A stretch of 64,000 nt of DNA, from assembly GCA_033239005.1 (NCBI GenBank), contig BSQZ01000053.1:2779501-2843500 (forward strand), written 5' to 3'. The notes beneath the pieces were generated by a model. That model was not told the origin of the DNA, did no database searches, and worked only from the letters and a program-made list of their open reading frames with translations. A program made the position numbers and the translations under genes. The stretch's first letter is position 1, and the number at the start of each line of letters is the position of its first letter. Below, piece after piece: positions 12,141 through 16,819 of the stretch. This stretch comes from Lamellibrachia satsuma. Lineage: Eukaryota; Annelida; Polychaeta; Sabellida; Siboglinidae.

Positions 12141-12148
12141 TATATATA
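12141..12148 (+). promoter_or_regulatory. TATA box of deaminase-like gene
   Basis: TATATATA lies 41 bp before the ATG at 12182. A TATA box normally starts transcription about 30 bp downstream, so the predicted start is near 12170 and the 5' UTR would be only about 10 nt. This supports 12182 as the first in-frame ATG in the transcript. Confidence 0.55.
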
Positions 12149-12181: not shown

Positions 12182-13522
12182 ATGGAATTCCCATTGCAGG
12201 TGAGTATTATTTTCGATGAAATATTAGTATTACTGAGGGACAAGTATCTCAACGAGGTAGTTCTTCAATATACAAGTCAATTAAATCGTTCAGTAACATT
12301 TTCTGCTAATGAACCATGTGGTATTAAAGAAATTACTACGTTTATAAACCATTCTCAACTTGGAGATGGTGCTGATAACAAAACGTATGCTAATGAACTA
12401 ATCATGTATAGAAACCTTCAATGTATATTAAAATTATTGGATAGGAACACTGTTTCTATTAAAGACAAGTACCTATACCACATTAAGCCTTCAAAAAATA
12501 CAGATGATGAAAAGGAAATTATGTATAATATACAAGGACAAATCAGCAGTAGACAAAGACTAGATCATCTACGAAAATTTGTAGCAGCATGTAGCCTCAT
12601 AGACAAACACGTCACACGGCTCATCTGTATTGTACGTAATGGGAAAAAAACTACGTTTTCTAATTTCTATGAGAATGAACCTTGGGGTCCACACGCTGAG
12701 GACCTTTTTCTTGAAACGTTCAATAAATCAATATTAGAAAATGCTAATGAACTAATCATGTTTATAAACCATTCTCCATGTTGGAAATGTGCTGATAGAC
12801 TACTTCAATTTGTATCAACATTATCGGATATGAACATCACTGTTTCTATTTTATGCATGAACCTATACCACATTAAGCCTTCAAAATATATAGATGATGA
12901 AAAGGAAATAAAGAAAAACAGACAAGGACTCTACAATCTAAGCCGTGCTAATGTGAAATTAAAAATGATCTCCAACAAAGACTTGTTAGAATTGTTTGAA
13001 TGGCTTCAAGTCGATCAACCGGACAATTATTCAAACTATGATGAATCTACTATTCGCCCATTGGTGGAGAACATATCGAACCAAATCGCATGCTTGGCTC
13101 AACCTAACTGTCCAAGCGGAGTCGTAACAACCAATTTTTTGCCAGTTCTTGACGAGTGGCAAACAGCCATGATGGAGCAGACTACTACAAATAAAAATAG
13201 TGAGACAAACATTGAAATTCTTATAAACAAAATGCTTGATATGAAGCAGAAAAGAAAACATAAACGTAAGTTAGATCAGATCAGAAGCGAGTTTACTAAC
13301 CTCACAAAACACCAAGATAAAGACCCCGAAAAACAACAAAATAATAACCCCAAAAACCACCAAATTAATAACCTCACAAGTGACGATTATAAATCTACTA
13401 CACAAGTCATGCTTATGTTGGTACGTCTGCAAATTAGGTATAGATATAAAAACATGTTCAAGCATACATTTGATAAAGAAAGCTTGCAAGATTTGGATGA
13501 ATGTATGCAGGCAAATATATAA
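12182..13522 (+). CDS. AID/APOBEC-like zinc-dependent cytidine deaminase
   Basis: This intact 446-codon ORF has no introns visible. Residues about 140-280 carry the deaminase fold: strands TRLICIVRNGK and TTFSNFYENE, then H171-A172-E173 (zinc histidine, catalytic glutamate), a 25-residue gap, P199-C200-W201-K202-C203 (SPCWKC, zinc cysteines), the strand NITVSILCMNLYHI, then GLYNLSRANVKLKMIS and a final helix LLELFEWL. The LY strand end and the GL..L..A.V.L..M pattern after it match AID/APOBECs rather than free-nucleotide deaminases. The family converts C to U in DNA or RNA; invertebrate members have been proposed to act in immunity. Residues 43-121 are a catalytically dead duplicate of the domain. 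Residues 281-446 are an extension with a basic cluster (KQKRKHKRK, 355-363) and an Asn/Gln/Lys-rich stretch (376-400). The start was chosen from the TATA box. The first 18 nt end in CAG followed by GTGAGT, so splicing after codon 6 is an alternative. Family assignment is strong; activity and substrate are unknown. Confidence 0.85.
   Translation: MEFPLQVSIIFDEILVLLRDKYLNEVVLQYTSQLNRSVTFSANEPCGIKEITTFINHSQLGDGADNKTYANELIMYRNLQCILKLLDRNTVSIKDKYLYHIKPSKNTDDEKEIMYNIQGQISSRQRLDHLRKFVAACSLIDKHVTRLICIVRNGKKTTFSNFYENEPWGPHAEDLFLETFNKSILENANELIMFINHSPCWKCADRLLQFVSTLSDMNITVSILCMNLYHIKPSKYIDDEKEIKKNRQGLYNLSRANVKLKMISNKDLLELFEWLQVDQPDNYSNYDESTIRPLVENISNQIACLAQPNCPSGVVTTNFLPVLDEWQTAMMEQTTTNKNSETNIEILINKMLDMKQKRKHKRKLDQIRSEFTNLTKHQDKDPEKQQNNNPKNHQINNLTSDDYKSTTQVMLMLVRLQIRYRYKNMFKHTFDKESLQDLDECMQANI
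12308..12544 (+). repeat. decayed in-frame duplicate of the deaminase core (residues 43-121)
   Basis: Pieces match the functional domain 0.35-0.42 kb downstream at nucleotide level. The 18 nt encoding ANELIM at 12389-12406 are identical to 12743-12760. The 24 nt encoding LYHIKPSK at 12473-12496 are identical to 12863-12886. The TTTATAAACCATTCTC block at 12341 recurs at 12761. The pieces fit as one partial copy (NEPCG to FINHSQLGDGAD) that lacks the HAE stretch and has Leu and Gly where the zinc cysteines should be. A second partial copy (YANELIM to KEI) lacks the PCxxC segment. Implied gaps are 19 and 12 codons and the overlap is 22 codons, all in frame. Confidence 0.75.
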
Positions 13523-13528
13523 AAACGG

Positions 13529-13534
13529 ATTAAA
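13529..13534 (+). terminator. polyadenylation signal ATTAAA
   Basis: The common variant hexamer ATTAAA occurs seven bases after the deaminase-like stop codon. Cleavage near 13550 would give a very short 3' UTR, in keeping with a compact, apparently intronless gene. Confidence 0.4.
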
Positions 13535-13749
13535 AACTATGAATAATAATGGAAACAGTAGAACGAATTAGTATACCACTTGCAAGAGTGTTAAATGTAG
13601 AAGATATTTACAAAACACAGCATTTTAAATTGTTCTATATGTATATAAACTACAGATTGTGTAATGGCTAGCAGCATGAATATGTTTAAAAACAAAGTTG
13701 ACACATATCTCAAGAGGGCGGGTTATAAGTAGGTGATGATAATAATAAT

Positions 13750-13958
13750 TTCGTTTACCCTACTTTGCCTCAGTCTACTCAGCTGCAAATGAGTACAAAC
13801 ACTATTTGGAAGGTACCTGCGATGGACTAGTGTCCCGTCCAGGAGAGTCAGTATAACTGCACTCTAAGTTGCTTCGCACTATAGAAACCAGGTTTAAGCA
13901 CTGGCCATATAAGCCTTCATGGCTTCCTAAGGCGCAATACCTGGGGGATGACTTTACC
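13750..13958 (+). mobile_element. SINE family 1, head-deleted copy in array
   Basis: First array unit. The tRNA-like head and left target duplication are missing, so the copy begins at TTCGTTTACCC in the conserved central domain and runs to GACTTTACC, followed by TTTTATTTCAGG at 13959-13970. Confidence 0.75.
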
Positions 13959-14036
13959 TTTTATTTCAGGCAAGAGCCCATAATATTATATAAACATAAG
14001 TAAATGATGATAATAATAATAATGTTTTATTTCAGG

Positions 14037-14346
14037 GGGCAGCTGTGGCCTAGTGGTTAAGGTGTTGGACTCTAAATTCAAGGGTTGTGAGTTCAAGACC
14101 CACACTGGTCACGGTTCGTTTTCGAAGCTTAGGCAATTTCGTTTACCCTACTTTGCCTCAGTCTACTCAGCTGTAAATGAGTACAAACACTATTTGGAAG
14201 GTACCTGCGATGGACTAGTGTCCCGTCCAGGAGAGTCAGTATAACTGCACTCTAAGTCGCTTCGCACTACAGAAACCAGGTTTAAGCACTGGCCATATAA
14301 GCCTTCATGGCTTCCTAAGGCGCAATACCTGGGGGATGACTTTACC
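14037..14346 (+). mobile_element. SINE family 1, complete tRNA-derived copy
   Basis: The copy is flanked by 12-bp duplications TTTTATTTCAGG at 14025-14036 and 14347-14358. The head has a pol III A box (TGGCCTAGTGG) and B box (GAGTTCAAGACC), followed by the central domain GGCAATTTCGTTTACCC and TACTCAGCTGTAAATGAGTA. A 63-codon open frame inside it is incidental. Confidence 0.88.
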
Positions 14347-14424
14347 TTTTATTTCAGGCAAGAGCCCATAATATTATATAAACATAAGTAAATGATGATA
14401 ATAATAACAATGTTTTATTTCAGG

Positions 14425-14735
14425 GGGGCAGCTGTGGCCTAGTGGTTAAGGTGTTGGACTCTAAATTCAAGGGTTGTGAGTTCAAGACCCACACTGGTCA
14501 CGGTTCGTTTTCGAAGCTTAGGCAATTTCGTTTACCCTACTTTGCCTCAGTCTACTCAGCTGTAAATGAGTACAAACACTATTTGGAAGGTACCTGCGAT
14601 GGACTAGTGTCCCGTCCAGGAGAGTCAGTATAACTGCACTCTAAGTCGCTTCGCACTACAGAAACCAGGTTTAAGCACTGGCCATATAAGCCTTCATGGC
14701 TTCATAAGGCGCAATACCTGGGGGATGACTTTACC
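14425..14735 (+). mobile_element. SINE family 1, array copy 3
   Basis: Almost identical to the previous copy, with target duplications at 14413-14424 and 14736-14747. One extra G at the 5' end accounts for the 389-bp spacing. Confidence 0.88.
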
Positions 14736-14813
14736 TTTTATTTCAGGCAAGAGCCCATAATATTATATAAACATAAGTAAATGATGATAATAATAATAAT
14801 GTTTTATTTCAGG

Positions 14814-15125
14814 GGGCAGCTGTGGCCTAGTGGTTAAGGTGTTGGACTCTAAATTCAAGGGTTGTGAGTTCAAGACCCACACTGGTCACGGTTCGTTTTC
14901 GAAGCTTAGGCAATTTCGTTTACCCTACTTTGCCTCAGTCTACTCAGCTGCAAATGAGTACATTAACACTGTTTGGAAGGTACCTGCGATGGACTAGTGT
15001 CCCGTCCAGGAGAGTCAGTATAACTGCACTCTAAGTCGCTTCGCACTACAGAAACCAGGTTTAAGCACTGGCCATATAAGCCTTCATGGCTTCCTAAGGC
15101 GCAATACCTGGGGGATGACTTTACC
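14814..15125 (+). mobile_element. SINE family 1, array copy 4
   Basis: The same structure, with duplications at 14802-14813 and 15126-15137. It differs at the ATTAACACTGTTTGG stretch. The LINE body continues to its right. Confidence 0.88.
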
Positions 15126-15137
15126 TTTTATTTCAGG

Positions 15138-16480
15138 CAAGAGCCCATAATATTATATAAACATACAAGTAAAAAAAGATACCCTAATTTTTGCCTCAGT
15201 CTACTCACATGATGAACAATAGAGGTACATGTAGTGAGAAAAATATATATACATAAATATACATACATGACGTGTAGTAAAAATATATATGAGATAAGTC
15301 AAGATAAAAAATATATATATTTGTATAAAAGTATAAACATCATGAATTAAAAGCATACAATTGATCAATCCAATGTTTAATCAAAGGACTTCGATAATAA
15401 ATAAAATTGTGAAGATAATTCACAAAAAGTATATTGTCGGATTTTTCCAACCGGCATAAAAGGCTAAAAATTTATGAGCGAATACGTTCATTAAAGGATT
15501 TAATATGGCTTGCACTACAACGGGGTGACAGGTTGTGTATAATTCTAAAACTGTTGTTATAAGCGACAGTAATACCTTTCAGACTCTGTTTTTTAAAATG
15601 ACACCAAAGACTTGAGGTGTACATTGAACCACAGTATGAATTAAATAAAGTTGTTTTAATGGAATTGTTGCATAAGTAAAATTTTCTGGCTAAAGCATTT
15701 GCCTGAGCATAGATACATCTTTTCTGCCTGGCAATATTGTCATCATCAGTAAGATTATTGTTTATAATATGGCCAAGGTATTTACATTTCTCAGTGTAAG
15801 GTAGTGTATGGTTATTGATAACAACAGGATGAATATTTTTATTGTCCCTAGGTTTGTTATCAATAACCATACAGAAAGATTTGCTGGTGTTGTATGTTAT
15901 ATCAAACATATTGCCGTACTCGGCACAACAATCGGTGAGTTTTCTCAACCCAGCAACACTAGGTGAAAAAACACAAAGGTCATCGGTATACATCATATGA
16001 TTCATTATGGTTCCTGCGTAAAGACAGCCAATTTGTAATTTATTCAAATTTACACTTAAGTCATCCATGTAAACGTTAAAAAGATGTGGAGAAAGGATTC
16101 CACCCTGCTTAACACCGTTTGAAACGGTAAAAAAGGACATCCCCGGTCAATTAGTTTGGTGAATAGCTTACTATGATTGACTTTGTCAAAGGCCTTAGAG
16201 GCATCCAGCATAGTAACATACATAGATGAGCCATTCGCTATGATATGTAGTGTCGAAAGAGTTATTTTAATAAAAATATGAGCTTTCAGTTGAGTGATGC
16301 TTTTTAAATCCAACATTGAACATTGTTGGACTCTCGATAAGCCAATGGCTTCCTTGTCCACTTGCCATCTGGGCCTTTGGCTTGGATGGCAAATCTTGTT
16401 AAACAACAACTTGACAGAGACAGTATCTTCAGGCCATGTGAAATTCATACCGCACTGAGCTTTCAAAAAATAGATATAAA
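15138..16480 (-). mobile_element. non-LTR retrotransposon (LINE family 1), decayed, minus strand
   Basis: Reading on the minus strand, reverse transcriptase motifs appear in order: DASKAFDKVNHSKLF (block A aspartate), SNGVKQGGILSPHLFNVYMD, then MMYTDDLCVFSP, where the usual YADD box is YTDD, followed by a C-terminal part with KCKYLGHIINN. About 95 bp between block A and the GVKQGG motif are deleted relative to the copy at 56.8-57.8 kb, breaking the frame. The non-coding tail (15170-15470) matches 57800-58080. The 5' part, including the endonuclease, is absent. This type resembles CR1/L2/Rex-like LINEs; the exact clade is not decided. Confidence 0.85.
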
Positions 16481-16819
16481 GAAAAGGAAATAGTTTTCTA
16501 ATTCAACTAATCGGTTGTGGCACTAGTGTATGATGCTTGCATAAAGAAAAGTTTTACATAGTTTACCGCTTAAGCGGTTTAACAGTGACTTAAACGAATT
16601 GGGCGATAATATAGGTCGATTTGGTCCTCGCGCCAGCTTGGTTATCGGCGAAACAGATAGGCAGATGCAGTTCCCTTATAAACTTTATACTAACCAGGCC
16701 TTTCACCAAGACGTTCTTTTATACCCAGTGTCGCCCTGGGGGTGAAGACTTCTAACTTTTCATTGCACGGGCACAAAACGTCTTGTCAATCTGACTGTGC
16801 ACCTTGAACTTCTTCGGGT

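Follow-up and report, generated by a model that had tools for sequence, protein, structure and literature searches.

An AID/APOBEC-like deaminase gene with a degenerate first domain in a contig of Lamellibrachia satsuma

A 64,000-nucleotide stretch of Lamellibrachia satsuma DNA (contig BSQZ01000053.1, positions 2,779,501 to 2,843,500; here termed the window) carries an open reading frame (ORF) of 446 aa whose product, on the support of sequence profiles and a structure model, is an animal AID/APOBEC-like deaminase. With moderate confidence, the ORF is taken to be a nuclear gene for a polynucleotide cytidine deaminase that would descend from a two-domain ancestor. The second domain of the protein (domain 2) retains all the zinc-ligand and catalytic residues (H171, E173, C200 and C203) and is predicted to be active, catalysis being probable by homology; single-stranded DNA or RNA would most likely be its substrate, with C converted to U, and expression of the gene is likewise predicted. 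The first domain (domain 1) has lost its site, which is seen as HAD and HHWKC in a relative and is absent from the window copy. As it has no catalytic set, domain 1 would at most have a binding or assembly role, or might be decaying. The main features, all on the + strand, are as follows.

12182..13522, +, AID/APOBEC-like deaminase gene, ORF of 446 aa with an intact catalytic motif (by motif and Pfam)
12182..12541, +, N-terminal part, residues 1–120 (by DNA repeats and protein alignment)
12408..12539, +, internal repeat, N-part copy, 81% identical to 12795–12929; carries the first LYHIKPSK..DDEKEI block
12542..13006, +, catalytic deaminase domain, residues 121–275 (by Pfam 142–275, structure model 122–289 and Foldseek)
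12692..12700, +, HAE motif, residues 171–173, with zinc ligand H171 and catalytic E173 (roles by homology)
12776..12790, +, PCWKC motif, residues 199–203, with zinc ligands C200 and C203 (roles by homology)
12795..12929, +, internal repeat, catalytic-domain copy, partner of 12408–12539
13007..13519, +, C-terminal extension, residues 276–446, no domain recognised

The ORF at 12182–13522 has no internal stop codons. Its frame, 454 codons from stop to stop, is the longest of the window, followed by one of 305; 446 open codons would arise by chance with a probability of 1.4e-13 (local base frequencies, bases treated as independent). A first-pass annotation had described its length, the HAE and PCWKC motifs and the 25 residues between them (E173 to P199), LYHI and LLELFEWL, and all of these were located: LYHI is found at residues 98 and 228, GLYNLSRANVKLKMIS at 249 and LLELFEWL at 268. 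The pattern H[AVS]E-x(24-36)-PCxxC has been used to define AID/APOBEC-like deaminases (PMC5956068). The ORF has it as HAE-x25-PCWKC. This is the single occurrence in the six-frame translation of the window, and the pattern is not found in 100 single-base shuffles.

At the profile level, the full ORF matches 11 Pfam families at E <= 10, and nine of these, all AID/APOBEC clades, exceed the curated cut-off set for them; the matched residues are ∼142–275. The best are APOBEC_N (5.5e-17, 62.7 bits), NAD1 (1.8e-16, 61.2 bits) and SNAD4 (2.9e-16, 60.1 bits with a cut-off of 27). With these three practically tied, the profiles do not single out a clade. At 27.2 bits, APOBEC1 barely passes its cut-off of 27. 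Below their cut-offs are the model for generic dCMP/cytidine deaminases (dCMP_cyt_deam_1, 18.5 against 25) and, with the domain alone as query, the AID model (13.6 against 27.3). A match to DUF2935 was rejected as chance.

The same residues, ∼142–275, match solved structures by sequence, including APOBEC3F, APOBEC3G and APOBEC2 (best 4.3e-05), and a search with a four-sequence profile reached APOBEC3G at 1.9e-08. A low-confidence structure model of residues 122–289 was submitted to Foldseek, and all 50 of the matches listed are AID/APOBEC proteins. The first-pass annotation had thus assigned the family correctly: profiles, solved structures and fold matches agree with it, and the best profile matches are not to an unrelated family. 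It had also named a five-stranded deaminase sheet as the mark of the fold; in AID/APOBEC-like deaminases, alpha4 lies between beta4 and beta5 of this sheet. Strands 1–4 are present in the model, but the fifth was not modelled.

The internal duplication and the degenerate first domain were overlooked in the first-pass annotation. At the DNA level, positions 12408–12539 and 12795–12929 are 81% identical over 135 nt, and nhmmer aligns 12325–12539 to the catalytic-domain DNA (E 1.8e-18). Residues ∼48–120 therefore represent another deaminase copy, now decayed, from which the zinc and catalytic motifs are absent; its presence explains in part why the ORF is so long. A profile of the catalytic domain also matches residues 19–71 (18.1 bits) and 77–123 (41.1 bits); as this profile includes one of the relatives described below (P0002), these matches are not independent evidence. 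When queried by themselves, residues 1–151 match no Pfam family at E <= 10. Between the internal copies, synonymous divergence (dS) is 0.13 and non-synonymous divergence (dN) 0.19 over 30 codons, and the values are 0 and 0.10 in a second stretch of nine codons; the dN/dS ratio is accordingly not below 1. Faint similarity to the LYHIKPSK/DDEKEI part is also seen at 16413–16494 (nhmmer E 0.012; blastn 82% over 45 nt), possibly a remnant of another deaminase copy.

A search with the domain found two related proteins among 18 candidates, P0001 and P0002. Each is a single member from a contig of 1,896,650 bases, presumably one and the same contig. P0001 has 210 aa, is 86% identical to the window protein over 204 aa and retains HAED and PCWKC. 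P0002 has 198 aa, aligns to the N part of the ORF and has HADD and HHWKC in place of HAE and PCxxC. Its residues 69–158 give a 64% match to the catalytic domain (92 aa), and its SNAD4 score in Pfam is 23.4 bits, under the cut-off of 27. Of 24 placements, one allows the last part of P0002 and the first part of P0001 to be read from common DNA, with 26 nt of overlap in the +1 frame and just one string that fits both. Most simply, the two would represent one gene that is frame-broken at a run of T residues, the break being either real or a sequencing error. A third relative, P0003, is a 126-aa piece from a 1046-base JGI contig; it has HAEE and PCGDC, and its similarity fades soon past CADRL. Of the 7993 candidates listed and scored, none besides these three reaches E <= 10.

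Compared with P0002, domain 1 of the ORF lacks 28 aa at the HAD site and 11 aa at HHWKC, and there are four further gaps of one or two residues; that the gaps are whole codons stems partly from alignment at the protein level. In the first two stretches of the N part, 19/28 and 32/41 residues are conserved in P0002. In domain 1 of the ORF, the 22-residue block that starts at LYHI matches domain 2 in 17 of its 22 residues but domain 1 of P0002 in 11, which suggests that domain 2 was copied into domain 1.

Divergence from P0001 is uneven: 20 of 80 residues differ in 154–233 and four of 120 in 234–353 (Fisher p 6.7e-06, with the boundary at 233/234 picked after inspection of the data). The excess in the catalytic half may reflect fast change near nucleic acid-facing loops or conversion from another copy; the readings of divergence and of conversion both rest on three sequences. 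The C-terminal extension is common to P0001 up to INKM (residues 348–351). Beyond INKM, P0001 continues in a different frame, the DNA of which is likewise found in the window (SRKENINVS, then a stop), and ends 11 residues on. The extension of the window protein has a basic run, KQKRKHKRK, at residues 355–363. A 24-bp tandem repeat of 3.2 copies is found at 13297–13373 within the C-terminal tail.

Coding potential was assessed by a codon-phase test, in which the phase-0 value was compared with 2000 stop-free shuffles and the training region was varied. Trained on the catalytic domain, the phase-0 value was reached by 2/2000 shuffles for the N part, 181/2000 for 13040–13252, 24/2000 for the last 89 codons and 10/2000 for the whole C part. 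Training on the N part gave 65/2000 for the catalytic domain and 41/2000 for the last 89 codons, and training on the C part gave 2/2000 for the N part. The N part and the catalytic domain are in-phase duplicates, and therefore tests of one against the other are not independent; those that involve the C part are independent of the duplication.

Three features, also on the + strand, bear on the ends of the gene.

12141..12148, +, TATATATA, 33 nt ahead of the ATG; may be chance
12200..12205, +, donor-like GTGAGT after CAG, directly past codon 6; possible 5′ intron, unproved
13529..13534, +, ATTAAA, candidate poly(A) signal; may be chance

The first-pass annotation called the gene apparently intronless. 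This agrees with the catalytic domain as read, but not securely with the 5′ end, given the donor-like CAG|GTGAGT after codon 6 (12200). If the ends are wrong, the true protein would be a single catalytic domain of ∼170–230 aa, with residues 7–120 as intron or untranslated sequence and the tail past ∼351 out of frame. The good donor favours this, as do the lack of a Pfam match in residues 1–151, the end of P0001 11 residues past INKM, where it reads that DNA in a different frame, and the dependence of the N-part phase signal on the duplication. However, the N part is conserved as protein in P0002 (the 19/28 and 32/41 residues above), and the five frame-keeping acceptors listed for the codon-6 donor have, by eye, no pyrimidine tract. 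Openness of the frame does not discriminate, as 107 of 109 frame-keeping donor–acceptor pairs stay open (considering the ORF's own start codon only). A mistaken gene model of this kind is rather unlikely. The unspliced 446-aa model is likelier than a spliced one, both ends of the gene model being unproved.

The window copy might instead be a young pseudogene, or the relic of a paralog active elsewhere, open because of its recent origin and unused. The loss of the site from domain 1, the frame break if P0002 and P0001 are one gene, the dN/dS of the internal copies and the lack of an intron in the catalytic part, as in a retrocopy, are all consistent with this, and in sea urchin the reference shows frameshifts at five of nine loci (PMC5956068). 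Against it are the 446 open codons, the retention of 4/4 motif residues, the phase signal of the last 89 codons (24/2000) and the six gaps to P0002 that leave both frames open (partly an effect of protein alignment, and P0002 was itself found as an ORF). A pseudogene is judged unlikely. A secreted relative of the sponge-type SNAD4, rather than a classical intracellular deaminase, is more improbable still. SNAD4 does rank in the top three of the Pfam matches and has been reported from sponges only (PMC11004436), and PMC8201067 names sponges too. Yet it does not lead APOBEC_N and NAD1 in bits, and charged residues at 2, 12, 13, 19–21 and 25 of the first 30 are, by eye, unlike a signal peptide.

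With an active two-domain descendant as the preferred reading, several known systems invite comparison. The window protein shares with SNAD4 a profile match well over the cut-off, but differs in its start, which by eye is not signal peptide-like, and in that two other clades score equally well. NAD1 has been reported from several vertebrate groups (PMC11004436, PMC8201067). Members of the family outside vertebrates are known, as the first-pass annotation had noted; some have been assayed and one has two domains (PMC5956068). The latter, LaAIDL1 of Lingula anatina, has two tandem deaminase domains and mutator activity in bacteria (PMC5956068). The window gene, compared by description only and with a partial first copy, would resemble it as an invertebrate AID/APOBEC-like protein with a putative two-domain layout. 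Unlike domain 1 of the window gene, both LaAIDL1 domains have the H and E residues (H81/E83 and H298/E300). The sea urchin SpAIDL1–9 genes are also invertebrate, have an APOBEC_N domain and occupy several loci, some frameshifted; family members of both sea urchin and brachiopod origin have been expressed and assayed (PMC5956068). Three APOBEC3-like proteins are listed for Aplysia (PMC9334734). In a limited literature search, the wording 'tandem deaminase domains' for invertebrate members was found only in PMC5956068, and the available portions of PMC13428168 and PMC11754093 hold nothing on a two-domain layout.

APOBEC3G has an inactive first domain and an active second domain. The window gene resembles this layout, with a dead first and a putatively active second domain. 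Domain 2 matches APOBEC3G and APOBEC3F in sequence and fold, but at 18–26% identity in the Foldseek rows listed, and domain 1 of the window gene is truncated. By homology and by analogy with the sea urchin and brachiopod relatives, the gene would probably act in innate immunity, directed at nucleic acid that is foreign or mobile. Perhaps it is an invertebrate APOBEC3G-like editor that arose independently of mammals, with a dead domain 1, an active domain 2 and a fast-changing catalytic half reshuffled between domains and loci by gene conversion, as would befit an arms race against viruses or mobile elements; this is a tentative proposal, and a doubtful one as a whole. A pseudo-enzyme partner domain is best known from primate antiviral factors. 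If expressed and active, the window gene would be one more cytidine deaminase, probably of an invertebrate, that has such a partner, and would raise the question of whether dead partner domains arise repeatedly in the AID/APOBEC family. For now, its main contribution is a new member of a family whose occurrence outside vertebrates was already established, the degenerate domain 1 adding interest over a plain member, and no claim is made that a two-domain layout with a dead first domain is unpublished.

Elsewhere in the window, a RAF-type kinase exon is found at 2179–2304 (PDB B-Raf match, E 8.9e-18; its ORF has no Pfam match). This points to an animal nuclear genome and bears out the animal host implied in the first-pass annotation. 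There are 24 ORFs of at least 120 aa, six of which were scanned with Pfam besides the deaminase: three have reverse transcriptase matches above the cut-off and one below, one has a zinc finger match below it, and the RAF ORF has none. The first-pass annotation had suggested an anti-retroelement role from such neighbours. Nothing found supports that argument, and the findings in the window show no tie between the deaminase gene and retroelements. Just downstream of the gene, 13747–15165 holds 3.6 tandem copies of a 388-bp unit (98% matches), with hits to the tRNA family of Rfam (RF00005) at 14046, 14435 and 14823. The unit is tRNA-headed, resembles a short interspersed nuclear element and is arranged head to tail; ARAGORN calls no tRNA in the window. 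Between the gene and the array, at 13664–13732, is a short frame, MASSMNMFKNKVDTYLKRAGYK followed by a stop, which we take to resemble the end of the reverse transcriptase ORF of a long interspersed nuclear element.
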